A DNA stretch of 64,000 bases, from positions 7,811,833 to 7,875,832 of the forward strand of contig NC_088655.1 of assembly GCF_964019385.1 (NCBI RefSeq). The letters are read 5' to 3'. Made by a program: the position numbers and the translations under genes. This document shows positions 34,001 to 60,300 of the stretch, piece by piece; the stretch's first letter is position 1, and the number at the start of each line of letters is the position of its first letter. Source of the DNA: Sycon ciliatum. Its lineage: Eukaryota; Porifera; Calcarea; Leucosolenida; Sycettidae. Below the pieces are notes generated by a model that did no database searches, was not told where the DNA came from, and saw only the letters and a list, made by a program, of their open reading frames with translations.

Positions 34001-34865
34001 CACATGACTTTCATACAGTTTGTGTATGATATGGATTATGGATGGTAGACACATAACCTCCTCAGCAGTAAACACACGTTGCTGGCCAAAAGGTCGGTCT
34101 GCCCATGGCCTGACCAACCGGACTGGTTCCGCTGGGTATGAGTAGATATATGTACTAGGAACGCAGTGCCATAACAAAACAAATCACGGTGCGCATGACA
34201 CTCGGATGGAAGCCGAGTTTTCGCATCCGTAGGAACGCCACCACAATCTAGGATCAAGGCACATATGCAAAACCTAAACGGCGGGAGGTAAGTTGATGAG
34301 ACCCACCACAAAGTGGTCAAAGACCGAAATCCCATAAACTGCATCCATTTTACCCTCGTGCCAGGCCACGAGTTCTCAATTAACTGTGGTTCCCAGCATG
34401 GCTGGGAAAAATTCCTTCCGCTTCCAAGCAGGACTTGAACCTGGTTCGCAACCATGACCTTAGACCATCCCACTGTGCCTGCCATAGTGCCATAGAACAT
34501 ACCAAAAACCTCAGACATAGAAAACCTTGTGATGAAATACTGGCTTGGGGAACTGAGAGCATGGAGCTATGGATACTTCCAATTGATACAGCAAAACATA
34601 TCCACTTACGGATGCATTTGAACATACACACACGCTCATGCATACACACGCACACATCCCTTCACGGACGCACAAACACCCCTTTCCTAACACACACATA
34701 CAGATGTATGTGAGCACGTCCACAAATGAGCGCATTTTTTTCTGTTCCTATCTGCACTGAACGCCATCTGCCTCTCAACAATTGAGAAAGGACAAAGGTA
34801 GGCAAATATCGTGCCTAGTCTGGGGGCAGTGAAGTATGGACCAACTGGTCTCTGCTTTGGAAAGA
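34001..34865. repeat. 865-bp tandem duplication, copy 1
   Basis: Tandemly repeated at 34866-35730. I found one difference, T at 34399 against C at 35264. The unit starts with one minisatellite unit and contains a SINE. Confidence 0.93.
34190..34505 (-). mobile_element. tRNA-derived SINE, copy 1
   Basis: On the minus strand GATGGTCTAAGG (A box, complement of about 34458-34469) and GGTTCAAGTCC (B box, complement of 34431-34441) have pol III promoter spacing and Leu/Ser-tRNA-like sequence. The body follows, with the hairpin CCCAGCCATGCTGGG. The tail is the segment shared with 17385-17500. End points are approximate. Confidence 0.72.
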
Positions 34866-35730
34866 CACATGGCTTTCATACAGTTTGTGTATGATATGGA
34901 TTATGGATGGTAGACACATAACCTCCTCAGCAGTAAACACACGTTGCTGGCCAAAAGGTCGGTCTGCCCATGGCCTGACCAACCGGACTGGTTCCGCTGG
35001 GTATGAGTAGATATATGTACTAGGAACGCAGTGCCATAACAAAACAAATCACGGTGCGCATGACACTCGGATGGAAGCCGAGTTTTCGCATCCGTAGGAA
35101 CGCCACCACAATCTAGGATCAAGGCACATATGCAAAACCTAAACGGCGGGAGGTAAGTTGATGAGACCCACCACAAAGTGGTCAAAGACCGAAATCCCAT
35201 AAACTGCATCCATTTTACCCTCGTGCCAGGCCACGAGTTCTCAATTAACTGTGGTTCCCAGCACGGCTGGGAAAAATTCCTTCCGCTTCCAAGCAGGACT
35301 TGAACCTGGTTCGCAACCATGACCTTAGACCATCCCACTGTGCCTGCCATAGTGCCATAGAACATACCAAAAACCTCAGACATAGAAAACCTTGTGATGA
35401 AATACTGGCTTGGGGAACTGAGAGCATGGAGCTATGGATACTTCCAATTGATACAGCAAAACATATCCACTTACGGATGCATTTGAACATACACACACGC
35501 TCATGCATACACACGCACACATCCCTTCACGGACGCACAAACACCCCTTTCCTAACACACACATACAGATGTATGTGAGCACGTCCACAAATGAGCGCAT
35601 TTTTTTCTGTTCCTATCTGCACTGAACGCCATCTGCCTCTCAACAATTGAGAAAGGACAAAGGTAGGCAAATATCGTGCCTAGTCTGGGGGCAGTGAAGT
35701 ATGGACCAACTGGTCTCTGCTTTGGAAAGA
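34866..35730. repeat. 865-bp tandem duplication, copy 2
   Basis: See copy 1. The near-perfect identity shows that the duplication is recent, or an assembly duplicate. Confidence 0.93.
35055..35370 (-). mobile_element. tRNA-derived SINE, copy 2
   Basis: The duplicate of 34190-34505 at +865. Confidence 0.72.
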
Positions 35731-41223: not shown

Positions 41224-41252
41224 CAGTATATTTCACTTCATCAAATAATTAA

Positions 41253-43481
41253 GAGAGCATGTCTGAGAATACCAAAGTATGTGTGCAAGTGGATCTCTCC
41301 GATTTCGCTCAAAATTTGCAGGTATGTTCCCTTTGGGGTGTGGATCGATCGTGCAAAGCCCTTGAAAAAGTTTCTGAAGGGAACCTTGAAATTTGGATAC
41401 CCCTCAGAAAAGGCCGAAATATCACATTATTTATGGGTCTAGAAACGAGTCACGCCACAGCGTATACGAACAAGCTATGAACAAAACTCCATCAAGCCAA
41501 CATTGCCTCACCTTAGAAGAGTTCCTGGAGCGGTACCGCTTAGCCACGCCAGGATCCCAGAAGACGAGGTCCATCACCCCCTGACGCCACAAATGATCGT
41601 CTTGAAAATAGCCAATTTACAAGCGCTGGCAAAACAGCCAGCTACGTCCTCAATTGGCCAGAACTATACACCGGCATATAGTAGAACACCTCTTCTAGCG
41701 ATGAGGACATGTCCCCCATCTTCCTTTTGGGGTTTTCTTGAAATAAACTTTTTTGAATTTTTCCACTCGACCATGCTGAAATACGGCCAAAGTCATACCT
41801 GCGCAGGAAAGCTCGCCCCTCCGCGACGTCTCCTCAGCAATTTCTACTCCAACACTACTCCCAAGGCCGCAGAACAAAGTGTATTGTTGGCTCTGACAAG
41901 GAAAAGCAGCGGTGATCACTTGTCACTCCAAACGACAAGCTTCTCCTTGCGCCACCGATAATTTTTTGTGCGACTGTTGATGCAAAAGTGACTGAAGGCC
42001 TGAGCGCAGTTTTTGAATTTTATTGCAAGATGCACGATGAGATCGCGTGCTCTGTGACGTAGGATGACGCTTTCATATCACGACACGCGGCCATCGATCG
42101 CGAACGTGACTGGAACGCTACTCGGAACAGACCATGATGGCCGCGAGGTAAGATGAACTGTATTTCCTGCTTGATCTACTGAGAACCCTCACAAACTGTC
42201 CTAGGAGTGTTGCAATGGCAGCAAGCCGTTGAAATATGCCCCACTTACAGCATGGAGAGTTATTCATCTTTCACACTTACCTCCTGAAATCCGAACATAG
42301 TCCAACTGTAAAAGTCCCTTGTTTTCATGTCGATGCTCGACAAAAGCTGCAAGCTCGGTCGCTTTGTGTTGACTGTCACGCGAGCAGCACTGGCTGCACG
42401 AACGTGTCGCGTGAACTGCATGAGAGATTTCTTACGTCATAAAGAATATGATTTCATCATCATTTCACTGGTCTTCGACTTACATGGTCAGGGAAAGTCC
42501 CGATTCGTAGGCCTACAACACGGTCATCGTGTTCTTGAGCGCAGTAACAACACAACTTCACAAGTGTGATCACTTCCAGACCAACGGGCGTTCAAGGCGA
42601 GTAACAAGCGCACATGACGAAGGTGACTCTGAAATCTCGTGAGACATGATCCACGGGACTTGGAATTCTTGCGTCACAAGGCACGTGATTTCACCGTGCC
42701 TCTTGTAGTGAAATTCTTTGAATTGCGCTCATGCTTTCAGTCACTTTTGCATCAACAGTCGCACAAAAAATTATTGGTGGCGCAAGGAGAAGCTTGTCGT
42801 TTGGAGTGACAAGTGATCACCGCTGCTTTTCCTTGTCAGAGCCAACAATACACTTTGTTCTGCGGCCTTGGGAGTAGTGTTGGAGTAGAAATTGCTGAGG
42901 AGACGTCGCGGAGGGGCGAGCTTTCCTGCGCAGGTATGACTTTGGCCGTATTTCAGCATGGTCGAGTGGAAAAATTCAAAAAAGTTTATTTCAAGAAAAC
43001 CCCAAAAGGAAGATGGGGGACATGTCCTCAGCGCTAGAAAAGGTGTTCTACTATCTGCCGGTGTATAGTTCTGGCCAATTGAGGACGTAGCTGGCTGTTT
43101 TGCCAGCGCTTGTAAATTGGCTATTTTCAAGACGATCATTTGTGGCGTCAGGGGGTGATGGACCTCGTCTTCTGGGATCCTGGCGTGGCTAAGCGGTACC
43201 GCTCCAGGAACTCTTCTAAGGTGAGGCAATGTTGGCTTGATGGAGTTTTGTTCATAGCTTGTTCGTATACGCTGTGGCGTGACTCGTTTCTAGACCCATA
43301 AAATTAATGTGATATTTCGGCCATTTCTGAGGGGTATCCAAATTTCAAGGTTCCCTTCAGAAACTTTTTCAAGGGCTTTGCACGATCGATCCACACCCCA
43401 AAGGGAACCTACCTTCAAATTTTGAGCGAAATCGGAGAGATCCACTTGCACACATACTTTGGTATTCCCAGACATGCTCTC
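41253..43481. mobile_element. FB2: TTAA-flanked foldback element, ~760-bp arms
   Basis: GAGAGCATGTC at the left and its inverse at the right are each bounded by TTAA (41249-41252, 43482-43485). The arms are 41253-~42015 and ~42720-43481 and differ at only a few sites. The 152-codon frame 41503-41961 (plus) has its mirror at 42771-43229 (minus). It shows no known domain and may simply be open by chance. No transposase is seen. Confidence 0.85.
42016..42719 (+). other. FB2 centre, possibly captured host sequence
   Basis: The unique centre of about 700 bp has TACGTCA/TGACGTAG sites, then CCATGATGGCCGCGAGGTAAGA at 42132-42153, which would suit a start codon followed by a splice donor. A captured promoter and first exon is a guess. 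No protein match. Confidence 0.35.
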
Positions 43482-43684
43482 TTAACAATGAACACTAATA
43501 ACACGAAGTAGTGGTTGCGACCTCGGCGATGATTTGTAAGAAAAGGGTTTGCTCCCCACACCGGAGCTCGCGCTATTCCGCCGACTTTACTTGACACTTG
43601 ACTGACTCACGACTGCCATCCAGAGCACACGAGAAGTCCATCGAACCTTCGACTCGGCAAACCTGCAAGAAAGCACCACTCCCT

Positions 43685-43730
43685 GCTCAATACACAGTGT
43701 TTCGGGGAATTCACCCCTCATCAGTTGAGC
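43685..43730 (-). ncRNA. type I hammerhead ribozyme, unit a
   Basis: Minus strand: stem I GCTCAA / TTGAGC; core CTGATGA; stem II GGGG-TGAATT-CCCC; core GAA; stem III ACA-CTG-TGT; cleavage after GTA. All invariant positions of the hammerhead core are present. Stem I extends past an internal loop (ACTC / GAGT), as in natural tertiary-stabilised forms. It would self-cleave a tandem transcript into 479-nt monomers. Confidence 0.93.
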
Positions 43731-43751
43731 TTGAGTAGGCTGAGGAAGATT

Positions 43752-43791
43752 GTGCCTGAAGAGCACCACTTATATAGTGCTCTCCAGGCAC
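43752..43791 (-). promoter_or_regulatory. TATA-loop hairpin, unit a
   Basis: Minus strand: GTGCCTGGAGAGCAC and GTGCTCTTCAGGCAC pair over 15 positions with one mismatch. The loop carries TATATAA. It lies 21 bases upstream of the ribozyme, so a TATA-directed start would fall just before stem I. Confidence 0.65.
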
Positions 43792-44163
43792 GACCATCAC
43801 CAGGGATACAAACTTACAGAGACGCTCCGTTTTCAGCGCGACAAACACCTCGTGAGCACCAGATAGCAGCGTGAGTCAGTGTCGCTCCTGGACGGTGAGA
43901 CAGACGTCCAGGACCCTCGGTCATTCGCAACGCTGTCACCTCCAAACCAACTAGTCGCAAGCCCGCGCTGGGCACAACAGTACGAAGTAGTGGTTGCGAC
44001 CTCGGCGATGATTTGTAAGAAAAGGGTTTGCTCCCCACACCGGAGCTCGCGCTATTCCGCCGACTTTACTTGACACTTGACTGACTCACGACTGCCATCC
44101 AGAGCACACGAGAAGTCCATCGAACCTTCGACTCGGCAAACCTGCAAGAAAGCACCACTCCCT

Positions 44164-44209
44164 GCTCAATACACAGTGTTTCGGGGAATTCACCCCTCAT
44201 CAGTTGAGC
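44164..44209 (-). ncRNA. type I hammerhead ribozyme, unit b
   Basis: Identical to the ribozyme of unit a, 479 bp further on. The TATA-loop hairpin is at 44231-44270. Confidence 0.93.
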
Positions 44210-44761
44210 TTGAGTAGGCTGAGGAAGATTGTGCCTGAAGAGCACCACTTATATAGTGCTCTCCAGGCACGACCATCACCAGGGATACAAACTTACAGAG
44301 ACGCTCCGTTTTCAGCGCGACAAACACCTCGTGAGCACCAGATAGCAGCGTGAGTCAGTGTCGCTCCTGGACGGTGAGACAGACGTCGAGGACCCTCGGT
44401 CATTCGCAACGCTGTCACCTCCAAACCAACTAGTCGCAAGCCCGCGCTGGGCACAACAGTACGAAGTAGTGGTTGCGACCTCGGCGATGATTTGTAAGAA
44501 AAGGGTTTGCTCCCCACACCGGAGCTCGCGCTATTCCGCCGACTTTACTTGACACTTGACTGACTCACGACTGCCATCCAGAGCACACGAGAAGTCCATC
44601 GAACCTTCGACTCGGCAAACCTGCAAGAAAGCACCACTCCCTGCTCAATACACAGGAGCGTCCAGGAGCGACACTGACTCACGCTGCTATCTGGTGCTCA
44701 CGAGGTGTTTGTCGCGCTGAAAACGGAGCGTCTCTGTAAGTTTGTATCCCTGGTGATGGTC

Positions 44762-44801
44762 GTGCCTGGAGAGCACTATATAAGTGGTGCTCTTCAGGCA
44801 C
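44762..44801 (+). promoter_or_regulatory. TATA-loop hairpin, inverted unit d
   Basis: The same hairpin on the plus strand. TATATAA is at 44777-44783, and the ribozyme follows at 44823. Confidence 0.65.
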
Positions 44802-44822
44802 AATCTTCCTCAGCCTACTCAA

Positions 44823-44868
44823 GCTCAACTGATGAGGGGTGAATTCCCCGAAACACTGTGTATTGAGC
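44823..44868 (+). ncRNA. type I hammerhead ribozyme, inverted unit d
   Basis: Plus-strand positions: stem I 44823-44828 and 44863-44868; CTGATGA 44829-44835; stem II 44836-44849; GAA 44850-44852; stem III 44853-44861; cleavage after A44862. The core is complete. Confidence 0.93.
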
Positions 44869-45028
44869 AGGGAGTGGTGCTTTCTTGCAGGTTTGCCGAG
44901 TCGAAGGTTCGATGGACTTCTCGTGTGCTCTGGATGGCAGTCGTGAGTCAGTCAAGTGTCAAGTAAAGTCGGCGGAATAGCGCGAGCTCCGGTGTGGGGA
45001 GCAAACCCTTTTCTAACACTAATAACAC

Positions 45029-45249: not shown

Positions 45250-47512
45250 ATTTAGAAAAGCGATCCTGTCAGCTTTTCTATTCTTGGGTTCACATGGCAG
45301 AAAAAACGACATCGATATGCTACGTAAGTTTCTACGTAAGGTGCTCGGTATTTCGCTTAGGCTACGTAAGTTTCTACGAAAGGTGCTCGGTATTAATTAG
45401 ATCTACCAACGCGTGGTAGCCATGTGCTGTGCACGTGCACGGCAGACATTGTGTTGCAGTGCAGTCCGTTTTCGGATGTGCATGCGCGAGGAACTTCCTT
45501 CTTTGGAACTGCTTCTTGCATGAGCTGTTTCGGATATTTCGTGTCCTGACTTATTTCGCTTCGGCTCTGCTGAGACCTCCTTTCAGTTTCACGGAATATT
45601 ACTCAATGACAGGTAACTTGACCTGTTCCCTTTGATTCAATTGCTTGTGTTGACTCTTTCATTTACGAAAAGTGTGCTGATTTTAGGTGGAATTATGGAA
45701 TACAATAAATAATGGAAAAGCTGACAGGATCTCTTTTCTAAATTTAGCTTTTCTGCTGTCGAGGCCTCCTTTTACGGAATACTCAATGACAGGTGATCTC
45801 TGAGTTGACCAGTTTTCTTCGATTCATTTGCTTATGCTCACCCTTTCATTTACGGAAACGTGTGCAGATTTTATTCGGATTTAGATCCATTCGTATCTCT
45901 TTGCCCTTGCCAACAGTGTGCGAAGAACGCGAGTTCACCTTCTTGACGGTAAGGCTTATGTAATATAATAATGCTGCTGAGGCTTAGATGTGTTGTCGAA
46001 ATACTCATGTTCATTGTACATTGGTACGTTACAAGTACGGCACTGGTAATGATTGCTTCCGGAATTCCGTGCTCCGATCATAGGGTAGAATCTGAATTTT
46101 GCAGTGGCATAGCATCGTTGGCAGTTCCCAATCTGGAGGGAAAGGTTCAAGGACGCATTGGCCGAGTATGCAAAATACTGTAAATTCGCATATCAGGGAA
46201 AATCTCCATTATGGAGAGGTTCATGCATTCAGTGACTTGTTTGCTTCATACACTAGTATACGAAACAAGCCAATGGGTAAAGTCTCGTCTCGTGAAAATC
46301 TCGTACGATTGGATTTGTTTACTCAAGTCTGGGCTGTTTGATTTGTGAGTACCGCCGAGATTGCACTGCCCGAAATAAAGTTGCGTGCCGGCAGAGCAAG
46401 AATTACGATCTGCAATCTGTTTGTAGTACATGTACCTGCGAGAATGTGCTGTATTATTATTATTTACTTCAGTATTATTATTAACTTTGATTTTACTAGG
46501 GTGTACATGTATCGTATTTTCTCTGTTGTTGTTTCAGTTGCCGTCGTGTTGCTAAAGAAAGGTTCAGTGACTCATTTGTTTCATACAATACGAGTCAATG
46601 GTTTGGTCTGGCTTAGAATCTTTCGCTGTAGAAGAAATCTTTTCGTGTCTCTATTGGAGAAATAATTGTATTCACTCGTTATAAAATAGGGTTAAGACAA
46701 ACTCACAGAACAAATACCATCGGTCCCTTGATGTTCGTCCTAAAGAGGTTTGACTGGATATCATTCATACTCCCCCAAAGCCGTGTGACATTTTATTATT
46801 ATGGAGCGCCTTGTTTATCTCTCAGTACCTCCAACCATATCCTTGCCCCTTATATCCTCAGGATCAGTGTAGTTGTTGGAACGAAGTATCGGGCTCAACA
46901 ATGTATTTGTTTACATTTTAATACATGCTTATTGTTCCTACTTTGCTGTGTTGTTTTAGACAATCGTGGACTTGTAATACTTTGAAGTCATTGAACTACT
47001 TCCAAAAGTTGTATCGACAACAACAGGATTACGATTTCAGTACAATAATATTATGATGCCGGATGACCTTATCACGACAACCCATGACTACAATTATAAA
47101 CACAGAATCAGCAAAAACATCTGCGGCACGCACCTGCTTACAATTCTCAAGTAAATGTGATTTAGAGTGTGGACATCTGAATTTTCTGAAAGACAAGACA
47201 ATTTTATGACAGAGTCATGAAATTCTGCAACAGCCACATCCACAGAATGACCTGCGTATAAAAAAAGTATCACTACCCATATGATTCCTCTGCAGAAGAA
47301 CATGAATATGCAAGACTAGTGCCATTTCTGCAAGAAAAGGCTTGCGCATCAATGCGTATAATACGGTATTGAATTTGATATGATGCACATGTGGAGGCGC
47401 TACATGTAGGCCATCATTTAGAGCATTCCATTGGTGACACAACTACATGTATTATCAACAGTACATAAACCTTGGTATTATAATAATCATCCTTAGCCAA
47501 AAAAAAAGAAAT
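45250..47512 (-). repeat. Rep-D, arm 2 (inverted relative to 21254-24185)
   Basis: Collinear in reverse with arm 1. It lacks the three arm 1 insertions and has a small extra TTA-rich piece at about 46440-46510. The inner-end hairpin is at 45253-45280. The outer end abuts element P copy 3. Confidence 0.82.
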
Positions 47513-47752
47513 TATAGCAATAAAAACTGCTTTATGGCAGTTTTCTAAAAAAAGTTATTGTGTTCTAGTCCATGGACCCCGTCTAAAAAGTAAGAAATTA
47601 ACGAAATGTGATAGCCGAAAATTAAAATTTCACACAAAACCTCACAATAATCACAACACTTGAGGATCTTAGTTTTAAAAAAATACTGCTTTCAACACTT
47701 GTTTAGTCCGACCAAGAAACACCCTAGTGTCTCCTCGTCGCCTTTTCAAATA

Positions 47753-47813
47753 AAATAATAATAATAATAAAGAGTCGGCGTGGGGAAAGCAATTTTAATA
47801 ATAATAATAATAA
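47753..47813 (+). repeat. two short TAA microsatellites
   Basis: TAA runs at 47753-47771 and 47796-47813, separated by AAGAGTCGGCGTGGGG and a few bases. They mark the left border of the inserted nest. Confidence 0.8.
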
Positions 47814-47954
47814 AGGGTTTGCTCCCCACACCGGAGCTCGCGCTATTCCGCCGACTTCACTTGACACTTGACTGACTCACGACTGCCATCCAGAGCACAC
47901 GAGAAGTGCATCGAACCTTCGACTCGGCAAACCTGCAAGAAAGCACCACTCCCT

Positions 47955-48000
47955 GCTCAATACACAGTGTTTCGGGGAATTCACCCCTCATCAGTTGAGC
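47955..48000 (-). ncRNA. type I hammerhead ribozyme in the Penelope-like element
   Basis: The same 46-nt ribozyme as in the array, on the minus strand and therefore opposite to the downstream ORF. The TATA-loop hairpin is at 48022-48061. Confidence 0.92.
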
Positions 48001-48664
48001 TTGAGTAGGCTGAGGAATACTGTGCCTGAAGAGCACCACTTATATAGTGCTCTCCAGGCACAAACATCACCAGGGATACAAACTTACAGAGACGGTCCGT
48101 TTCCAGCGCGACAAACACCTCGTGAACACCAGATAGCAGCGTGAGTCAGTGTCGCTCCTGGATGGTGAGACAGACGTCGAGGACCCTCGGTCATTCGCAA
48201 CGCTGTCACCTCCAAACCAACTAGTCGCAAGCCCGCGCTGGGCACAACAGTACGAAGTAGTGGTTGCGACTTCGGCGATGACTTGTAAGAAAGGGTTTGC
48301 TCCCCACACCGGAGCTCGCGCTATTCCGCCGACTTTACTTGACACTTGACGGACTCACGACTGCCATCCAGAGCACACGAGAGGCAGTCGCTCCAGCCCT
48401 CCGCCCGACGAAAAGGAGGAGGCGTCGGCAAGCGTATCCACTGCGGACTTGGACAAGTCCACCTCAGACACAGACTGCACTGGACACTTCGGTGGACGAC
48501 CACGCCGAGGTCGAGAACCACGTGCAGCTACAGGGACAAGATTCAACGGTACATGTTGACTGGAGCCAACCCAAACAACAGTCAACAAGAAGAAGAGACC
48601 GATACGGAAACCACCGAAACTGACATCTGGACAATCGAGCCCCGGACGAGTCACCAGAAGTCAA

Positions 48665-49114
48665 TTGAGGAGACGAATTGATGACGAATCAAAAGAATCA
48701 ATACTGGAAGTGACAACAACGGTTAATGTGAAGAAACGAGGTAGACCACGGAAGCAGGACAGACTGGACGTGGAGCAGCACACTGATCTCGACCGAGGCA
48801 ATCGGAATTGCAGGGACGCAGGGCGAAATGGGAGAGATTCGCAAGCGGCGATATCGGAGGTGACAACGGCCAAGTCGTCGGGTCAGGGAAACGGTACCTC
48901 GGCAATCAAGTGTCACCTGTCGGGCAGTGCTAGTTGTCGTGAGTGGTATTCCGATGATGTATTCTCTGTTTTGTCGCGTGGTAGGTCTTTGTTACATCTT
49001 GCCGTGTTGGAAGCTTTGTACATACGTAAGTTAGACCCTGAGCTTTGTGTTCAGAAGGAGAATGTGTTGTCTTTGCAGTTGTTTGGCACTGTTCGTCGTG
49101 AAGGTGCGAAATAG
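48665..49114 (+). CDS. AT-hook plus GIY-YIG C-terminal fragment (Penelope-like)
   Basis: 149 codons. VKKRGRPRK (~22-30) is an AT-hook, a minor-groove DNA-binding motif. The C-terminal ~65 residues, with SAIKCHLSGSAS, FSVLSRGRSLLHLAVLEALY and IRKLDPELCVQKENVLSLQL, match the end of the GIY-YIG endonuclease of Penelope-like elements, with the conserved glutamate in LEALYI. The GIY and YIG strands and the RT are missing, so no nuclease activity is expected. Overlapping frames upstream (48297-48681) are rich in Arg and Pro (one reads GGRPRRGREPR, a second AT-hook-like piece), which suggests a frameshifted longer ORF. Confidence 0.65.
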   Translation: MRRRIDDESKESILEVTTTVNVKKRGRPRKQDRLDVEQHTDLDRGNRNCRDAGRNGRDSQAAISEVTTAKSSGQGNGTSAIKCHLSGSASCREWYSDDVFSVLSRGRSLLHLAVLEALYIRKLDPELCVQKENVLSLQLFGTVRREGAK

Positions 49115-49405
49115 ATCTCTTGATATTTCTCTCTTTTTCTTGTTACTACGTTTTTGTCACTTATTGGATTTGCATGCTGTTTTTTTTGATTCTTCACATC
49201 TATTTTTTCGTGTCACTTCTACACATAATTGGAGTGATATGTTTCTGAACTTCTTTTCCTTATAGTTGTAGTCTTTTAGCTTATTTCCATCATTCCCTGT
49301 AGTATTTTGACAAGAAGGGAACAAAAACGTTCAATACTTTGACACATGTCCTAATTGGCTGGTGGTGACTCTTGCGTAGATGCATGCGTAGATAATACAT
49401 TTTTT

Positions 49406-49406
<1 letters not shown>

Positions 49407-49437
<31 letters not shown>
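49407..49437 (+). repeat. TAA microsatellite, 5' border of RLE LINE
   Basis: About ten TAA units directly before the LINE 5' end. Confidence 0.9.
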
Positions 49438-49490
49438 GATGTTATCTTATAGCCTCAGTCGGCGGTACGTTACGTGTGTACGGAGACCGG

Positions 49491-50573
49491 ATGCTGATGG
49501 AATGGACTCAGCTGCGCCCCGACCGACCGTTGTCTAAGCAGCACCTCATGGACCAGCTAAGGTTTGTGAAAAGAACAAAAAAGATTACCGACATCGAATT
49601 TGATGAGATAAAGGCTCGGCTCGGAAGGGACGGATTGCTCGTGACGGCTGGCACTGACAACGCTGTGCCTGCGGAGCTGCCGGAGGCGAATGCTTTGGGT
49701 GAGTTTGGTGCGTCGATCCTGGTGCCTGGTTCGTGTGACGGCATGGTGACTAGCCCAGACGTTGCTGAGGCCACCCACAGTGAGTTGCTGGACGCTTCTG
49801 TTGATGGTTTGCGTGGAGCTAGTCCTGACACCTCAGTTACATCAGGTGGTTCGGGTGATGGCACTGGCGCAGCAATGCAAACTGGCACCAACGCTAGTGA
49901 CACCCTGGGTGCGTTCGAGCCAGATAGTACACCACTCTACGCCAAACTTGTTGCAATCTACGAACAGTGCGGTGCAACTACTCCAGAGTCCAGGTCGAGC
50001 CTACCTGTACCTAGGCACGTGGCCAGGAAGTCTCTGGCCTCTGCCACTGCCCGTGTGAACAAGATACTCCCTAGACTCCTGGAGTGTGACCGTGAGGTGC
50101 GAAATGACACCACCTCGCTTGGCCAGATCAGTGACATGGTCTATGCTGGGGCCAAGCTTGTACTCTCACTGCTGGATATCAATACAGATGGTACCCCTGA
50201 CACAACTAGAGGAGAACGCTCCTTGCCTGCCTGGCGACAACGCCTTGAAAAACGTGTTTGTGCACTGAGGGCTGACGTCTCCCGGCTGACCAGCTTCCTG
50301 CGTGATGGATCCCTCTCTGACACCAACATCAAGCAGCACAGGATCCACCGGCAATATAAAGTCCAGACTTTGGATCAGGCCCGCCAGCTACTGGAGCATA
50401 CGAAAATGCAGCTAGAAGCAACAGCCGCACGGATCCGGCGCTATAAGCTAGAGGCAACACGCAGGTCGGAGAATCGTGTTTTCGTCACGAATGAGCGTCA
50501 GTTCTACCGCAATATGACCAAGTCTACGGAAATGCCTGGGCAGCGACCAGGCTGCTGCGCATCCATCGGCTGA
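49491..50573 (+). CDS. RLE LINE, N-terminal region
   Basis: This opens MLMEWTQLRPDRPLSKQHLM at ATG 49491. A middle acidic, Gly/Thr-rich part follows. Helical segments KILPRLLECDREVRN...ISDMVYAGAKLV and RLEKRVCALRADVSRLTSFL match the N-terminal part of vertebrate and invertebrate RLE LINEs. The end, RRSENRVFVTNERQFYRNM, is the usual lead-in to the RT (family form FYR-L...). One base lost or gained near 50560 sends the frame to CCASIG-stop, while the next frame continues HPSAEAVTEFWSSILEQPVG into the RT. Apart from this, the element looks intact. Confidence 0.75.
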   Translation: MLMEWTQLRPDRPLSKQHLMDQLRFVKRTKKITDIEFDEIKARLGRDGLLVTAGTDNAVPAELPEANALGEFGASILVPGSCDGMVTSPDVAEATHSELLDASVDGLRGASPDTSVTSGGSGDGTGAAMQTGTNASDTLGAFEPDSTPLYAKLVAIYEQCGATTPESRSSLPVPRHVARKSLASATARVNKILPRLLECDREVRNDTTSLGQISDMVYAGAKLVLSLLDINTDGTPDTTRGERSLPAWRQRLEKRVCALRADVSRLTSFLRDGSLSDTNIKQHRIHRQYKVQTLDQARQLLEHTKMQLEATAARIRRYKLEATRRSENRVFVTNERQFYRNMTKSTEMPGQRPGCCASIG

Positions 50574-50574
50574 G

Positions 50575-52998
50575 GCTGTTACTGAGTTCTGGTCATCTAT
50601 ACTGGAACAACCCGTGGGGCTGCGTGGCGGTGCTTGGCTTGATAAGTTGGAGAGGGACTGTGAGGAGATTCAACAACAAGACCGTGTCATTCTTCAACTG
50701 GAGGACCTCAGGGACATCTTGAAGAAATCAAACAACTGGAAAGCCCCAGGACGAGACAAGATCCATGCATTTTGGTGGAAGAAGTTTTCGTCTATCCACG
50801 AGCGGCTTGTGGTCTCCTTTCAATCAATCCTGGATGCAGAGACAGAGTCGCCGGCCTGGTTCTCGTTTGGTATCACCACTCTACTGCCTAAAAAAGGAGA
50901 CCTTTCTAGGCCCGAGAATTATCGCCCAATAACATGCCTGCCAACGATTAGCAAGATATTCACATCCTTACTCGCTGCTGCCATGTGGCGCCATTTATCT
51001 TCAGAGGATATCTTTGCAGATGAGCAAGTTGGCTGCACTCCAGGGCGTGGTGGATGCCTTGACCAACTAATGATCGACAAGATGGTTCTAGAGGATGCAG
51101 CATCCCGTTGTCGGAATCTTTCGACGTGCTGGGTGGACTTCCGCAAAGCCTTCGATAGCCTGTCTCACCAGTGGATCCGGAGATGCCTGTTGATCTACCG
51201 CTTTGCAGACAATCTTGTCTCATGCATCTCAAGCATGATGGATCATAGGAGAACGCAAATGGTACTGCCTGGTCAAACACCCCGTGCATTCAGTCGCCCA
51301 ATATCTATCCACCGTGGCATTCTCCAGGGCGATTCCCTTTCTCCACTGCTATTTTGCCTGTCTCTAAATCCGATCAGTGGCGAGTTGACCAGGACGGGTC
51401 TTGGCTACCGCTGTGGCCCACCGGCCCAGGTGTGCCCTGTATCGCACCTGTGGTACATGGACGACATGAAGCTCTTCGCCCGAAATGACAATTATCTGCT
51501 CTCCATGACCAATGTTGTGGAGTCAATGGGCGACTGCATTGGTATGCGTTTCAACCCGTCAAAGTCTAGCTGGCTCACTTTGAAACGGGGGAGAGCCCAG
51601 AGCGATCAGCAGTCTGCTCTCCAGACACTCCAGGGTCACGCTATTGCTAAGCTGCAGGCGGAGGAGTCCTACAGGTACCTTGGTGTCCCAGAATCAGCAC
51701 ATTTTCACGCCACCGAATTGAAGACCACAGCAAAGTCTGAGTTCGGCCGCCGCCTTCAATTCATATGCTCGTCTCAATTGAACGCCAGGAACTTGGTCAA
51801 AGCCATCAACACCTTTGCCATTCCAGTCATCCTCTACTCTCTGGGCATCGTTGAGTGGACAAAGGCAGAGATAGAGGAACTCGACCGACAGACCCGCCAA
51901 GCACTGTTTAAAGCACACGCCCGCCACCCCAAGGACTCTGCCGCCAGGGTCCACCTGCCTCGTGACATGGGTGGTCGAGGAATTCTATCATTCCGGGATC
52001 TCCTGGATAGAACCCGTGTCCGGGTGGCGCGGTACCTACAAGCCCACCCAAACGTGCCACTGTTGGCTGCTGTTAAGCGCCATCATGACAATGATGTGGC
52101 ACCGTCAAAATCAGTTACACGTCAAGCCTCCAGACTTCTGGGTGAACTTGACCTACCCGACTTGGAGACTGCCACAAAAGTCATTGTCAAGAAGGCCGTT
52201 GCTCTCCGGTGCCTGGCCGTTATCCAAGGTAAGCCTCTCCATGGCCAGTTCTGGAGACGAGCTGCTGATGCTGGCTTGGACCTGGGCTTGAGTTTTCGCT
52301 GGCTGAAATCGCCAACGATCAGGTCTGCGACAGAGGGACTCTTGCTGGCTGTACAGGATCAGGCCATTGCGACCAGGCACTATCAGGTCACGGTCATTGG
52401 ACGGGGAGACGTTGTGGACATTTGTCGAGTTTGCGGCACTCGCGGAGAAACAGTTGATCACATTGTGGCCTGTTGCCCAGCTCTAGCCAAAACACTGTAT
52501 ATCGAACGGCATGACACGCTCGTCAAGTTGGTGCATTGGGCACTATGCAAGCGGCATGGTCTGGGTCGGCCGGGAAGCAACCCGCTGAAGCATCATCTTG
52601 TGCCTGTCACGGAAAATCCTGACATGAAGCTCCTGTGGGAGTTCAATATCCCAACGGATACGCAAGTGCGCCACAACCGTCCAGACCTGGTGTTGCGGTC
52701 CAGCACACAGGTGCTGCTGATGGATGTTAGTGTTCCATTGGACCAGAATGTGCCCACAAAAATCGCCGAAAAAATAACAAAGTACGCTCCCCTTTGCCAA
52801 GAGCTGCGGCGCATCTGGCATGTGGATGATGTCCGCGTTGTGCCCCTGGTTGTTGGGGCGCTTGGTGGACTGACTGGTGTGTCCCTCTCACACTTTGCGT
52901 TGGCATTGGCAGGCACTCTGCGCATTGAAAGGGCTCAGCAATGTGCTATCCTGGGCACGCTGAACATCGTCAAGTCGGTTCTTGGCATTCGGCATTAG
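50575..52998 (+). CDS. RLE LINE: reverse transcriptase, zinc finger, restriction-like endonuclease
   Basis: About 800 codons, open to TAG at 52998. Residues are numbered from 50614. RT motifs: NWKAPGRDKIHAFWWK; ENYRPITCLPTISKIFTSLL; WVDFRKAFDSLSH (catalytic Asp); GILQGDSLSPLLFCLSLNP; and LWYMDDMKLFA with YMDD at 281-284. The C-terminal part has a CCHC finger, CRVCGTRGETVDHIVACC (~604-621), then the restriction-like nuclease with RPDLVLR (PD at 690-691) and LLMDVSVP (D704), and the family-typical KIAEKITKYAPLCQELRRIW and VVPLVVGALG. The protein nicks the target and primes reverse transcription there. No APE domain is present, as expected. All catalytic residues are present. Only the frameshift near 50560 separates it from its N-terminus. 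Confidence 0.92.
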   Translation, partial: AVTEFWSSILEQPVGLRGGAWLDKLERDCEEIQQQDRVILQLEDLRDILKKSNNWKAPGRDKIHAFWWKKFSSIHERLVVSFQSILDAETESPAWFSFGITTLLPKKGDLSRPENYRPITCLPTISKIFTSLLAAAMWRHLSSEDIFADEQVGCTPGRGGCLDQLMIDKMVLEDAASRCRNLSTCWVDFRKAFDSLSHQWIRRCLLIYRFADNLVSCISSMMDHRRTQMVLPGQTPRAFSRPISIHRGILQGDSLSPLLFCLSLNPISGELTRTGLGYRCGPPAQVCPVSHLWYMDDMKLFARNDNYLLSMTNVVESMGDCIGMRFNPSKSSWLTLKRGRAQSDQQSALQTLQGHAIAKLQAEESYRYLGVPESAHFHATELKTTAKSEFGRRLQFICSSQLNARNLVKAINTFAIPVILYSLGIVEWTKAEIEELDRQTRQALFKAHARHPKDSAARVHLPRDMGGRGILSFRDLLDRTRVRVARYLQAHPNVPLLAAVKRHHDNDVAPSKSVTRQASRLLGELDLPDLETATKVIVKKAVALRCLAVIQGKPLHGQFWRRAADAGLDLGLSFRWLKSPTIRSATEGLLLAVQDQAIATRHYQVTVIGRGDVVDICRVCGTRGETVDHIVACCPALAKTLYIERHDTLVKLVHWALCKRHGLGRPGSNPLKHHLVPVTENPDMKLLWEFNIPTDTQVRHNRPDLVLRSSTQVLLMDVSVPLDQNVPTKIAEKITKYAPLCQELRRIWHVDDVRVVPLVVGALGGLTGVSLSHFALALAGTLRIERAQQCAILGTLNIVKSVLGIRH

Positions 52999-53412
52999 GC
53001 TCCTCATGTTACGGGTAGAGCTAGTCCGTATAAACCTCCAATACTGCATTTGCTTTGACATCCATGAATGTGCAGTATGACGGTCCTCACAGCCTGATTT
53101 TTCTCTTGCCATTTGAGTATGTCCGCATTCATCTCTTCCGCTATTTCTACAGGTCTATTCCTGTACTGGTAGTCCATTTTTGTGATTACTCTTTTTGTAT
53201 TCGAATATGTCCTGTCCTCCTCCATCGTTCTGCTTATTTCTGTCCGTCTCTCAGTTTCTGCGTCGGCTTTCAATATTTTTGCTTTGGTTTTTACAATCCT
53301 TTTTGCTTCGGTCTCCATTGCGTTGGCCATTTATCTATTTTTTTCTCTCATCACCCTTGGTCTCTTTTGGCCCGGTGATGGGGTTCTTACCTCATGTCAT
53401 GAAAGCCAACTC

Positions 53413-53441
53413 CATAATAATAATAATAATAATAATAATAA
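53413..53441 (+). repeat. TAA microsatellite, 3' border of RLE LINE
   Basis: About nine TAA/ATA units. The right half of element P follows after ~15-50 bp. Confidence 0.9.
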
Positions 53442-53697
53442 GAGTCCATCTTGGTCTGACACTTCACGGGTGACTCTTACGATTACTGCGCCAACATGCA
53501 TGAATAGGAAAGAGGACCAGGAGGGGAAAAGGTCTTCTCGCTTTTCATCCTGTGTGTGATTATTGTGAGGTTTTGTATGAAATTATAATTTTTGGATTTC
53601 ACATTTCGTTAATTTCTTACTTTTTAGACGGGGTCCATGGACTAGAACACAATAACGTTTTTTAGAAAACTGCCATAAAGCAGTTTTTATTGCTATA

Positions 53698-54600
53698 ATC
53701 AACTTTGACAGACATGTCGACAACATAACCAGATAACCTGACCAGTCCACAGGCACAGACTGATGACAGAGCAGTTTCGACTTCAATTTTTGTCAGTCAA
53801 GGAGCTTTTTGGTCGAAGTCGATTATGAAGGGTTCAGGGAGAAAGGTTGTTGCAGAGCGACTAGGCCTTACCCGATCTACGAGCTGCATTTCTTGACTGT
53901 ATCGTGAGAACATTGTCATTCAAGGCTTTGAACTAGCCACGCTAATCATGAATTCCTGTTGAAGAGCAGCTTGGTTTCTTGTTTTTTTTTGCGACTTCTG
54001 GGCTGTGGCCTTGCATTTTGAAGACCTCTGCATGCAAGGGTAAGAAGCGCCACAAGCCTCGGGTGCAGTGTATGGATGCACGTCGAGCGGCAGAATTTTT
54101 CTATCTCTACTGTCAAAACGAAGGGGAACTGAAAACTGGGTCTGGAGAAGTTCACTCAAGGAGCAGCACATACGTACATCAGTGCCTTTCCAAGGCCAGT
54201 GACCCCAGGTAAAATTGATACTGAATTGTGTCAGCACCTGATGGTGGTATGACCTATTCCTAAATTAGCCTACTTTGCCTGTTAGTGAACAGTGGAGCAG
54301 AACACTACCAATTCTGTCACAAGCCGTGGCAAGATATGGGATCGTACCGTTGTGCTCAAGGTGTGCGAGCTGGGCTGCAAGGCGGTCGCTGCAGTAGATG
54401 GCGATGCGGTCCAAGTGAATGCATGACTCACTGTCTGGATACAGTATGCAGACAGTGAATCATGCATGCTATCATACCATGCTATCATACCATGCTATCA
54501 TACCATGCTATCATACCATGTTATTGGATGTGACTGCGCCGTTAGACATAATTATTCTGACAGATATGCAGTAGGAAGCATCTAGCAATGATGAGACTAC
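53698..54600. other. unassigned region with strong hairpin
   Basis: No gene recognised. The 77-codon plus frame at 53979-54212 has no motif. An inverted repeat at about 54419-54465 and the tandem CATGCTATCATAC repeat at 54466-54520 are described in the findings. Confidence 0.4.
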
Positions 54601-55570: not shown

Positions 55571-55830
55571 AGGGGAAGTTAAGCCAAAAATTAAAATTTC
55601 ACCAGTTGTAGTCTTCGGGGTACTGAGTCGAATGGTCTTGGTCCGAGAAAGCTGAGACGCTCCCTTCCTACTTGAATCCCAATCGAACTCGCGCACTTCC
55701 ACCGAAACTGGGTGACTGCGCCCTACGAGATGGGGATTTGTATGGAAAATGTCACTAAAAGCGCCATTTCGTTCTTATAAAAGCACGGATGACCGCGATT
55801 GGCCCATATGTTGTAGTCTTGTGGACGCTG
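55571..55830 (+). mobile_element. TTAA palindromic element, truncated copy 3
   Basis: It begins TTAA|AGGGGAAGTTAA and follows copies 1 and 2 for ~260 bp. It then breaks off at GTGGACGCTG, where the 35-bp satellite starts. No TTAA at the right. Confidence 0.82.
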
Positions 55831-57044
55831 TAGAATTACAATAACAGTTACTAGTACATACCCATTACAATAACAGTTACTAGTATATACCCTGCAGAAT
55901 TACAATAACAGTTACTGGTACATACCCTGCAGAATTACAATAACAGTTACTAGTACATACCCTGCAGAATTACAATAACAGTTACTAGTACATACCCTGC
56001 AGAATTACAATAACAGTTACTAGTACATACCCTGCAGAATTACAATAACAGTTACTAGTACATACCCTGCAGAATTACAATAACAGTTGCTAGTACATAC
56101 CCTGCAGAATTACAATAACAGGTACTAGTACATACCCTGCAGAATTACAATAACAGTTACTAGTACATACCCTGCAGAATTACAATAACAGTTACTAGTA
56201 CATACCCTGCAGAATTACAATTACAGTTACTAGTACATACCCTGCAGAATTACAATAACAGTTACTAGTACATACCCTGCAGAATTACAATAACAGTTAC
56301 TAGTACATACCCTGCAGAATTACAATAACAGTTACTAGTACATACCCTGCAGAATTACAATAACAGTTACTAGTACATACCCTGCAGAATTACAATAACA
56401 GTTACTAGTACATACCCTGCAGAATTACAATAACAGTTACTAGTACATACCCTGCAGAATTACAATAACAGTTGCTAGTACATACCCTGCAGAATTACAA
56501 TAACAGGTACTAGTACATACCCTGCAGAATTACAATAACAGTTACTAGTACATACCCTGCAGAATTACAATAACTGTTACTAGTACATACCCTGCAGAAT
56601 TACAATAACAGTTACTAGTATATACCCTGCAGAATTACAATAACAGTTACTAGTACATACCCTGCAGAATTACAATAACAGTTACTAGTACATACCCTGC
56701 AGAATTACAATAACAGTTGCTAGTACATACCCTGCAGAATTACAATAACAGTTACTAGTACATACCCTGCAGAATTACAATAACAGTTACTAGTACATAC
56801 CCTGCAGAATTACAATAACTGTTACTTGTACATACCCTGCAGAATTACAATAACAGTTACTAGTACATACCCTGCAGAATTACAATAACAGTTACTAGTA
56901 CATACCCTGCAGAATTACAATAACAGTTGCTAGTACATACCCTGCAGAATTACAATAACAGTTACTAGTACATACCCTGCAGAATTACAATAACAGTTAC
57001 TAGTACATACCCTGCAGAATTACAATAACAGTTACTAGTACATA

Positions 57045-57048
<4 letters not shown>
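55831..57048 (+). repeat. 35-bp satellite, first block
   Basis: The unit contains AGAATTACAATAACAGTTAC and TAGTACATACCCTGC. It is very uniform. Variants are GTTGCTAG, GGTACTAG and TATATACC. The first two units are shorter or altered (edge decay). Confidence 0.95.
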
Positions 57049-57094
<46 letters not shown>

Positions 57095-57301
57095 TAGTAA
57101 AAGCCTCTTTTACGGGCGAACAAAACACAATTTGCCATGGCGGAGGATTGAAAACAAATCACAATCATAATGATGACGTCGCATGTGATCAGACAGCAAG
57201 AGAAGCATAGCATAGTTCGCACAATCACGGGGCAAGGCTCAACGGGACACCCTAGCCTCCACGACAACCAGGGAGGCACAGCCATCCATTGGAGGCTGTT
57301 A
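57049..57301 (-). mobile_element. polyadenylated retrocopy inserted in the satellite
   Basis: A T run of ~45 bases (a poly-A tail on the minus strand) follows a ~205-bp body. TACATACCC occurs on both sides (57039-57048 region, 57301-57309), a target duplication of about 9 bp. The body on the minus strand ends GTAAAAGAGGCTTTTACTAC before the tail. A minus frame (56965-57285) reads MAVPPWLSWRLG... without known domain. It is a processed RNA copy or SINE of unknown parent. Confidence 0.78.
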
Positions 57302-60300
57302 CATACCCTGCAGAATTACAATTACAGTTACTAGTACATACCCTGCAGAATTACAATAACAGTTACTAGTACATACCCTACAGAATTACAATAACAGTTA
57401 CTAGTACATACCCTGCAGAATTACAATAACTGTTACTAGTACATACCCTGCAGAATTACAATAACAGTTACTAGTACATACCCTGCAGAATTACAATAAC
57501 AGTTACTAGTACATACCCTGCAGAATTACAATAACAGTTACTAGTACATACCCTGCAGAATTACAATAACAGTTACTAGTACATACCCTGCAGAATTACA
57601 ATAACAGTTACTAGTACATACCCTGCTGAATTACAATAACTGTTACTTGTACATACCCTGCAGAATTACAATAACAGTTACTAGTACATACCCTGCAGAA
57701 TTACAATAACAGTTACTAGTACATACCCTGCAGAATTACAATAACAGTTACTAGTACATACCCTGCAGAATTACAATAACAGTTACTAGTACATACCCTG
57801 CAGAATTACAATAACAGTTACTAGTATATACCCTGCAGAATTACAATAACAGTTACTAGTACATACCCTGCAGAATTACAATAACAGTTACTAGTACATA
57901 CCCTGCAGAATTACAATAACAGTTGCTAGTACATACCCTGCAGAATTACAAAAACAGTTACTAGTACATACCCTGCAGAATTACAATAACAGTTACTAGT
58001 ACATACCCTGCAGAATTACAATAACAGTTACTAGTACATACCCTGCAGAATTACAATAACAGTTACTAGTACATACCCTGCAGAATTACAATAACAGTTA
58101 CTAGTACATACCCTGCAGAATTACAATAACAGTTGCTAGTACATACCCTGCAGAATTACAATAACAGTTGCTAGTACATACCCTGCAGAATTACAATAAC
58201 AGGTACTAGTACATACCCTGCAGAATTACAATAACAGTTACTAGTACATACCCTGCAGAATTACAATAACAGTTACTAGTACATACCCTGCAGAATTACA
58301 ATAACAGGTACTAGTATATACCCTGCAGAATTACAATAACAGTTACTGGTACATACCCTGCAGAATTACAATAACAGTTACTAGTACATACCCTGCAGAA
58401 TTACAATAACAGGTACTAGTATATACCCTGCAGAATTACAATAACAGGTACTAGTACATACCCTACAGAATTACAATAACAGTTACTAGTACATACCCTG
58501 CAGAATTACAATAACAGTTACTAGTACATACCCTGCAGAATTACAATAACAGTTACTAGTACATACCCTGCAGAATTACAATAACAGGTACTAGTACATA
58601 CCCTGCAGAATTACAATAACAGTTGCTAGTACATACCCTGCAGAATTACAATAACAGTTACTAGTACATACCCTGCAGAATTACAATAACAGGTACTAGT
58701 ACATACCCTGCAGAATTACAATAACAGTTACTAGTACATACCCTGCAGAATTACAATAACAGTTACTAGTACATACCCTGCAGAATTACAATAACAGTTA
58801 CTAGTATATACCCTGCAGAATTACAATAACAGTTACTAGTACATACCCTGCAGAATTACAATAACAGTTACTAGTACATACCCTGCAGAATTACAATAAC
58901 AGTTGCTAGTACATACCCTGCAGAATTACAATAACAGTTACTAGTACATACCCTGCAGAATTACAATAACAGTTACTAGTACATACCCTGCAGAATTACA
59001 ATAACAGTTGCTAGTACATACCCTGCAGAATTACAATAACAGTTACTAGTACATACCCTGCAGAATTACAATAACAGTTACTAGTACATACCCTGCAGAA
59101 TTACAATAACAGTTACTAGTACATACCCTGCAGAATTACAATAACAGTTACTAGTACATACCCTGCAGAATTACAATAACAGGTACTAGTACATACCCTG
59201 CAGAATTACAATAACAGTTACTAGTACATACCCTGCAGAATTACTATAACAGTTACTAGTACATACCCTGCAGAATTACAATAACAGGTACTAGTACATA
59301 CCCTGCAGAATTACAATAACAGTTACTAGTACATACCCTGCAGAATTACAATAACAGTTACTAGTACATACCCTGCAGAATTACAATAACAGTTACTAGT
59401 ACATACCCTGCAGAATTACAATAACAGTTACTAGTACATACCCTGCAGAATTACAATAACAGTTACTAGTACATACCCTGCAGAATTACAATAACAGTTG
59501 CTAGTACATACCCTGCAGAATTACAATAACAGTTACTAGTACATACCCTGCAGAATTACAATAACAGTTACTAGTACATACCCTGCAGAATTACAATAAC
59601 AGTTACTAGTACATACCCTGCAGAATTACAATAACAGTTACTAGTACATACCCTGCAGAATTACAATAACAGGTACTAGTACATACCCTGCAGAATTACA
59701 ATAACAGTTACTAGTACATACCCTGCAGAATTACTATAACAGTTACTAGTACATACCCTGCAGAATTACAATAACAGTTACTAGTACATACCCTGCAGAA
59801 TTACAATAACAGTTACTAGTACATACCCTGCAGAATTACAATAACAGTTACTAGTACATACCCTGCAGAATTACAATAACAGTTACTAGTACATACCCTG
59901 CAGAATTACAATAACAGTTACTAGTACATACCCTGCAGAATTACAATAACAGTTACTAGTACATACCCTGCAGAATTACAATAACAGTTACTAGTACATA
60001 CCCTGCAGAATTACAATAACAGTTGCTAGTACATACCCTGCAGAATTACAATAACAGGTACTAGTACATACCCTGCAGAATTACAATAACAGTTACTAGT
60101 ACATACCCTGCAGAATTACAATAACAGTTACTAGTACATACCCTGCAGAATTACAATAACAGGTACTAGTATATACCCTGCAGAATTACAATAACAGTTA
60201 CTGGTACATACCCTGCAGAATTACAATAACAGTTACTAGTACATACCCTGCAGAATTACAATAACAGTTACTAGTACATACCCTGCAGAATTACAATAAC

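Follow-up and report, generated by a model that had tools for sequence, protein, structure and literature searches.

The window, i.e., the whole stretch of 64,000 nucleotides of the Sycon ciliatum assembly that was analysed (C14:7811833-7875832), carries an insertion at 43505-45014. The insertion consists of 2.4 tandem units of 479 bp and an inverted 0.75 unit, within a 14-bp target duplication. Unit a (43505-43981, the start lying at 43503/43505), the complete 479-bp unit b (43982-44460) and the partial unit c (44461-44655) are on the minus strand, the hammerhead sense. Unit d (44659-45014, or to 45018 with microhomology) forms the inverted arm on the plus strand. Units a and b differ at 1 of 479 positions, and the target word, AACACTAATAACAC, is present at 43491-43504 on the left and at 45015-45028 on the right. 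The original prediction, made from the letters of this DNA, had claimed both this layout and the bounding duplication, and the repeat coordinates bear it out.

Positions within the unit are given as s, counted on the hammerhead-sense strand, where s=1 is the first base past the predicted cleavage. The outer 3′ end of unit a, at 43505, is a D (tail) end at s ~186-188, and that of unit d is a P (no-tail) end at s ~152-156, including microhomology. Unit c has its inner 5′ end 7 nt upstream of the position where the hammerhead would cut. A separate pair of inverted 585-bp arms, 98% identical, at 41249-41831 and 42901-43485, ends 5 bp to the left of the target duplication.

Complete type I hammerheads had been proposed for a, b and d, and each is recovered by a complete descriptor match: 43685-43730 (minus; predicted cleavage GTA|TTGAGC between 43691 and 43690), 44164-44209 (minus) and 44823-44868 (plus). 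Four points were missing from that account: the hammerhead strand in units a and b is the minus strand, a fourth complete match lies at 47955-48000 (minus), and the window also has a chimera with Penelope-like sequence at 47812-49406 and a tail-only insertion at 28737-28780, both described below. The core reads GCTCAA-CTGATGA-GGGG-TGAATT-CCCC-GAA-ACA-CTG-TGT-A|TTGAGC. Stem I has 6 pairs, an internal loop and ~6 further pairs (CTACTC with GAGTGG, the same pairs appearing in the computed fold); stem II has 4 pairs and a 6-base loop, and stem III 3 pairs and a 3-base loop. The strict descriptor gives 4 distinct matches in the 64-kb window, all in the 479-bp family, and 0 in 200 simulated 64-kb windows. 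A search of Rfam did not report the motif at the gathering score nor at E<=10, and isolated 81-nt hammerhead stretches fold no better than shuffles (z -0.87 and -0.50). Thus, the hammerhead call stands on the exact core, the stems and their repetition. The copies fetched from the assembly contain 106 complete cores, of which 86 match the majority sequence exactly and 13 depart from it once.

The unit has 54% GC, no long reading frame, no LTR and no coding capacity. About 40 nt upstream of the hammerhead, at 43752-43791 (minus), a 15-bp hairpin holds TATATAA in its loop and is a candidate promoter; of the 161 unit copies that span the TATATAA (s 394-400), counting those of L022, 154 keep it unchanged. 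As a circle, the hammerhead strand is predicted to fold at -201.3 kcal/mol, versus -165.3 (sd 6.5) in 100 shuffles (z -5.5), and the opposite strand gives z -3.7.

A much shorter piece of the unit, 44 nt from s 148 to 191, lies on the minus strand at 28737-28780, inside a LINE reading frame. It is flanked by a 12-bp target duplication, GGTGACTACAAT (28725-28736 and 28781-28792), and joining the flanks restores the LINE frame, ...FDVFLTGDYNAHNSDWW..., so the piece is an insertion. It spans approximately P to just beyond D. A spliced-leader reading of this piece was dropped, as its ends coincide with the P and D sites.

Three other repeats were noted in the window. A direct duplication (34036-34566 and 34901-35431, 865 bp spacing) encodes identical 176-residue open frames. 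A 39-bp array of 62 copies occupies 14407-16797, and several of its frames stay open. A 35-bp satellite of ~210 copies, with a strong G/C strand asymmetry, extends over 55828-63181.

Copies and ends in the assembly

As the original prediction had supposed, the insertion has relatives with target duplications elsewhere. The searched assembly (538 Mb, 313 contigs) holds at least 296 matches to the unit, with 40 of 697 candidate places scored. The 40 stretches fetched are the best-scoring places, and 39 are counted as distinct once L022 alone, an apparent segmental duplicate of L019, is removed. L001-L008 are the same places as fetched loci. L009 and L014, at the same place of one repeat but with different inner junctions, are counted apart. 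A duplicated word of at least 9 nt flanks 28 of the 39 (27 in L009-L047 plus locus A in L001), in a search that allowed some positional freedom and had no shuffle control. About 16 of the 28 words are not plain (AAT)n repeats, and the remaining words are uninformative. The retrozyme family is real and probably recently active.

The typical copy has two arms arranged head-to-head, a minus arm followed by a plus arm, such that both outer ends are 3′ ends. This arrangement is found in 31 of the 39 distinct copies, the others being L015, L018, L020, L024, L042, L043, L044 and L047. In L024, a D arm of ~9 nt can be made out by eye, and L047 is a one-arm copy beside a chimera described below. The outer ends fall at two sites: P, ending in CAAACCCTTTTCTTA at s 148-162 including microhomology with AT-rich targets, and D, ending in CAACCACTACTTCGTA at s 185-196, ~35 nt beyond P. 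Measured from the predicted cleavage, P lies ~150 nt and D ~186 nt downstream. In every resolved head-to-head copy (28/28), one outer end is P and the other D, in either order (15 D/P, 13 P/D). Three further head-to-head copies have unresolved ends: L025 (N run), L032 (runs off the stretch) and L041 (left end at s=214). For the end counts, only the last two segments were used for L014 and L021, and the first and last of four for L029 and L045. D ends lie directly 3′ of CTACT in 30 of 32 cases.

Head-to-head arms range from 0.13 to 9.07 units, the longest, ~9 laps, being in L027; one single-orientation array, L015, has 16.8 units. The 62 inner ends are spread out: within 3 nt of the cleavage site, where 0.9 would be expected, there are none, and within ~8 nt, where 2.1 would be expected, there are 3.

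Two sets of loci deserve separate mention. L019 and L022 (C8:10.61 and 10.83 Mb), the apparent segmental duplicates, differ by one unit, so the unit number can change after insertion. The insertions L009 and L014 occupy one position in a PLE-like repeat and differ in their inner junctions, and they may reflect either repeated use of one target or one rearranged insertion; L024 holds the same repeat without that insertion.

Penelope-like elements and chimeras

Penelope-like elements (PLEs) are present in the same assembly. P0160, with a reverse transcriptase (RT) and a GIY-YIG domain, has at least 80 matches (57 of 9403 candidates scored), with many open frames of up to 1040 aa. The P0160-related loci are taken as autonomous PLEs from the RT and GIY-YIG order in one frame and from the tail. 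Pfam matches to the PLE frames fall short of the curated thresholds, with RVT_1 at 27 bits (cut-off 29.6) and GIY-YIG at 15-19 bits (cut-off 22.6); the presumed partners P0160 and L066 score 27-27.6 and 15-17 bits, respectively. NCBIfam gave only weak reverse-transcriptase matches to the PLE proteins, and a PDB search with the PLE protein gave no match. A search for the PLE N-terminus, on the question of whether the unit encodes it, yielded two proteins.

The PLE ends are of two kinds as well. In subfamily 1, the P-like end is ATTACGAAA, with or without the tail CTGTTTTTCCCACCGCCTCCAAACTACTGTTTG; in subfamily 2, it is TTTTTTGTAA, with or without the tail TATTTTCTGCCTCCGTCCTACTTTCAA. The P-like to D-like distance is 27-33 nt, and CTACT is also found in the common tail of both subfamilies. 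Eight head-to-head pairs have both ends visible (L049 with L060, L065 with L066, L052, L056, L061, L062, L067 and L068), and all eight have one P and one D; these pairs are taken as single insertions by adjacency and orientation. The P end of L052 has three extra tail bases. The other PLE loci (L050, L051, L053, L054, L055, L057, L058, L059, L063 and L064) show one end, none or a tangle.

Some further features of the PLE-like sequences were observed. The GIY-YIG domains of P0160, P0161, P0121 and window 48560-49111 are split by a long AT-hook-rich linker with GRPPK and KRGRPRK motifs. The PLE 3′ UTR (window ~49285-49345; L049 ~4015-4065; L066) shows, by eye, a pseudoknot-like pairing of TTCCC with GGGAA. 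A second, interleaved pairing is CTATC/GATAG in subfamily 1, with the paired replacement GTATT/AATAC in subfamily 2. A hammerhead reading of CTGAAGA...GAAA in this UTR was rejected: subfamily 2 is without the core, and the pseudoknot-like pairing fits better by eye. Minimal hammerhead-like motifs are found at L061:4225-4273, L067:15-58, L057:473-510 and in the right flank of L024, and those of L067, L057 and L024 are in the 3′ UTR of another PLE-like repeat.

Retrozyme and PLE sequences are joined in two places. In the window, at 47812-49406, the left arm is retrozyme (47812-48382, minus; 1.19 units, 97% identical), with its outer end at P (s=149) and the fourth hammerhead within it. It is followed by an inverted piece of PLE endonuclease coding sequence (48391-48558, minus) that corresponds to residues 35-90 of P0121, a EukProt protein with the prefix scpid (56 residues, 100% identical). 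This piece abuts, head-to-head, its plus-strand continuation to the stop, i.e., the C-terminal GIY-YIG endonuclease coding end of a PLE (48560-49111, plus; 98% identical to P0121). The PLE 3′ UTR (49112-49406, plus) then stops at a P-type end that belongs to the PLE itself and is followed by (TAA)10. Both PLE pieces are 98% identical to, and adjacent in, L066, the closest PLE locus fetched. On this arrangement, 47812-49406 is read as one insertion built from retrozyme and PLE RNA. Its retrozyme end is P and its PLE end is also P-type, in this single case, where the arms would have begun on different RNAs.

A reading of 47812-48382 as the antisense 5′ UTR of the LINE at 49437-53441 was rejected, since translation of both strands identified the sequence next to it as PLE endonuclease, inverted in part, and the LINE as having inserted separately in (TAA)n. 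This LINE is R2-like, its best PDB matches being R2 proteins, and it sits in the (TAA)n tail of the PLE and ends in (AAT)n. Both the chimera and the LINE are hosted by a foldback element with 145-bp inverted arms, 96% complementary, at 47511-47655 and 53555-53699.

In the second chimera, L047, a retrozyme minus arm runs from D (s=185) to base 1387, and an endonuclease frame begins at 1389 on the plus strand; the frame belongs to a divergent PLE of another subfamily (37-47% identical). PLE and retrozyme copies also share sites. L024 and the PLE L067 are both at (AAT)n beside 99% identical sequence, and L009, L014 and L024 sit in, or at the end of, copies of one further PLE-like repeat, which has a minimal hammerhead-like motif in its 3′ UTR.

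The template and the ribozyme

Laps copied from one circle are expected to show a given change in all laps, if it was in the template, or in one lap, if it arose later or as a copying error. The 30 simple copies show 50 all-lap, 11 some-lap, 3 arm-specific and 114 one-lap changes; L014, L015, L019, L021, L027, L028, L029, L030, L032 and L034 are outside this count. Over all 40 copies, the numbers are 84, 55, 24 and 312, respectively. The changes of the simple copies appear mostly as all-lap or one-lap, as a one-unit template predicts.

A permutation test run on 25 of the 28 P/D copies (all but L014, L021 and L029) places the two arms of a copy nearer to one another than arms paired at random (0.0117 vs. 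0.0208, p<=1e-4, 10,000 permutations). The partner is the closest arm in 12 of these 25 and ranks 14 or worse in five (L030, L033, L034, L036 and L046). In 23 of 32 copies, the arms are less distant from each other than from other copies, and in 9 the reverse holds. Rare changes are found in both arms 23 times and in one arm 77 times, 42 of the latter in L030 and L034. These two copies look like products of two templates each. Because they show P and D ends with different templates, the one-P-one-D pattern is weakened as proof of one shared RNA molecule, and the two arms of a copy may have begun on separate molecules.

The distribution of changes along the unit bears on the ribozyme. All-lap changes occupy 1 of 2342 site-copies in the 75-nt hammerhead region versus 69 of 9788 elsewhere, with the P-D module set apart (Fisher 1e-5). 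With each change counted once, the comparison is 1 vs. 30 (p 0.02-0.03). Some-lap changes number 5 in the hammerhead region vs. 46 elsewhere (p 0.11), and single-lap changes are equal at 0.0038 (42/11124 in the hammerhead, 177/46563 elsewhere). The P-D module has 14/2367 all-lap changes and a higher single-lap rate, 93/11781, partly from ends. In a sliding window, majority changes are fewest over the hammerhead (window starts at s 414-429), and in the all-lap class the hammerhead is tied for the minimum with windows at s 170-198. The sole all-lap change in the hammerhead, in L010 at s=450, is at the free N7 position, the N of CUGANGA. Scarce all-lap changes, the only one being at N7, mean that the templates reaching the genome mostly had intact hammerheads. 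This supports a ribozyme acting on the transposing RNA, and the best fit for the template is a ribozyme-processed, probably circular 479-nt RNA.

Mechanism, alternatives and known systems

The PLE-type pattern of ends in the retrozymes, the PLE-like elements of the same genome and the two chimeras together indicate that the retrozyme is probably PLE-driven. The family is thus an animal retrozyme, with its enzyme probably coming from a PLE. The first proposal, of a retrozyme-like and non-autonomous element that has type I hammerheads and target duplications and borrows its RT, is supported. The following steps are envisaged. The hammerhead would cut the transcript, which would then be closed to give a circle of 479 nt. 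Both strands of an AT-rich target would be nicked by a PLE protein, and cDNA would be primed on the retrozyme RNA at D by one target strand and at P by the other. Each arm would travel from part of a lap to several laps of the circle. Finally, the two cDNAs would be joined head-to-head, the staggered nicks producing the duplication. We regard such a non-autonomous animal retrozyme, moved by a PLE enzyme from a 479-nt circle through P/D two-strand priming, as highly probable.

The same PLE-driven element might instead use a long linear multimeric transcript of a genomic array as its template. Long arrays such as the 16.8 units of L015 exist, and some-lap changes do occur (15 in L015, 6 in L019, and 5 each in L027, L029 and L043, out of the 55 over all copies). 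In the simple copies, however, all-lap changes exceed some-lap changes (50 > 11), and RNA with an active hammerhead in each unit would rarely provide the length needed for the 9-lap arm of L027. Nor would a cut linear RNA be the template, as no inner end (0/62) lies within 3 nt of the cleavage site. A linear multimer is therefore considered rather unlikely.

A second alternative takes the unit as the pseudo-LTR (pLTR) of an unsampled PLE family, the arrays being decayed PLEs and no independent retrozyme existing. P/D ends, head-to-head arms and a terminal-repeat TATA are also described for PLE pLTRs in the available text of PMC3846280, and the two chimeras do join unit and PLE sequence. Against this, none of the 20 fetched PLE loci has the unit as its own terminal repeat; BLAST found no unit sequence in them except one 65-nt match in L055. 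At the protein level, 8 of the 40 stretches fetched for the retrozyme contain PLE-like coding sequence. In six of the eight, it is in the flank, ~70 to 510 nt away, and it abuts an arm only in L047 and L048, where the order is head-to-head rather than that of pLTR and ORF. This reading seems improbable.

Twin priming had been suggested for the inverted unit, and a genomic LINE could have made the inverted arm in this way: an inverted 5′ segment, a duplication and microhomology are all compatible with it. Twin priming leaves one 3′ end constant and lets the other vary, and it affects a minority of copies. In the sponge copies, each outer end is at a set site, one P and one D in 28 of 28; the head-to-head arrangement is the rule, at 31 of 39; and the PLE-like elements do the same in 8 of 8. 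LINE-type twin priming is accordingly given very little chance, and on the pattern of ends the inversion is ascribed to PLE two-strand priming. Ordinary satellite DNA expanded by unequal exchange, which L019 and L022 recall in having similar flanks, the same duplication and left arm and one unit of difference, is scarcely credible in view of the target duplications, recurrent ends, dispersed copies and insertion inside a LINE frame.

The preferred reading, a PLE-driven retrozyme, may be compared with known systems. The metazoan non-LTR retrozymes (Cervera and de la Pena 2020, PMC7229834) are alike, in the text available, in having tandem type I hammerhead units without LTRs or coding capacity, target duplications of >4 bp and a predicted highly paired circle. 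They are described there as ~170-400 nt (a range of 150-450 bp being quoted) with GC <50%, whereas the sponge unit has 479 nt and 54% GC; the GC value appears in the same text as a typical rather than a mechanistic property. The sponge unit has a TATA hairpin, whereas retrozymes do not seem to harbour promoters, according to the accessible part of PMC7761336. PLE-type P/D ends and head-to-head arms distinguish the sponge retrozyme from those of PMC7229834, as far as that text extends; a word search of it did not find "inverted" or "head-to-head". A literature search covering titles and the starts of abstracts, with most subscription papers outside it, did not find the one-P-one-D rule or an analysis of inverted arms for retrozymes among the matches listed. 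Plant LTR retrozymes are also retroelements with a ribozyme-processed circular RNA (PMC4918200, PMC7229834, in the sections available), but they differ in their type III hammerheads, LTRs, PBS, 4-bp duplications and Gypsy partner (PMC7229834, same sections). Exact-motif scans of collections of viral contigs and genome contigs gave no match; records of the sponge's own genome may be absent from those collections.

The likeness to Penelope and Poseidon PLEs is close. In the available portions of PMC11167929 and PMC3846280, these show head-to-head inverted copies with an optional tail at one inverted end, AT-rich targets, duplications and a hammerhead upstream of the RT start sites. Poseidon of Anolis, in vitro, starts cDNA at two adjacent internal sites bounding a 30-40-bp tail, cleaves and extends both target strands and prefers ATT, and the start sites used there were the same for both strands (PMC11167929, in its accessible text). 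The one-P-one-D rule of the sponge copies sharpens this description of start sites. Unlike PLEs, the sponge retrozyme has no RT or endonuclease and has multi-lap arms of a 479-nt unit; its hammerhead is canonical, with the stem I internal loop and a short stem III, whereas that of PLEs is minimal in the sources available. Thus, the sponge retrozyme behaves like a PLE copy but is no autonomous PLE.

A more specific proposal is that the retrozymes of this sponge are cis-ribozyme parasites of Penelope elements: a PLE dimer would use two neighbouring sites on a single 479-nt circle to prime both target strands, two polymerases would go round the same circle and meet head-to-head, and the hammerhead would be required since only cut-and-closed RNA can be copied for several laps. 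We give this proposal an even chance.

PLEs have been candidate movers of animal retrozymes by co-occurrence and shared hammerheads (PMC7229834, PMC7761336, in the parts available). In the sponge, the PLE start-site signature is found both in the retrozyme copies themselves and in PLE-like elements of the same genome, and two chimeric copies link the two kinds of element. This gives a direct handle on which enzyme mobilises animal retrozymes. Moreover, multi-lap, two-arm copies provide an internal clock, in which all-lap changes come from the template RNA and one-lap changes come later. It follows that selection on the ribozyme in the transposing RNA may be read from genomic DNA alone.
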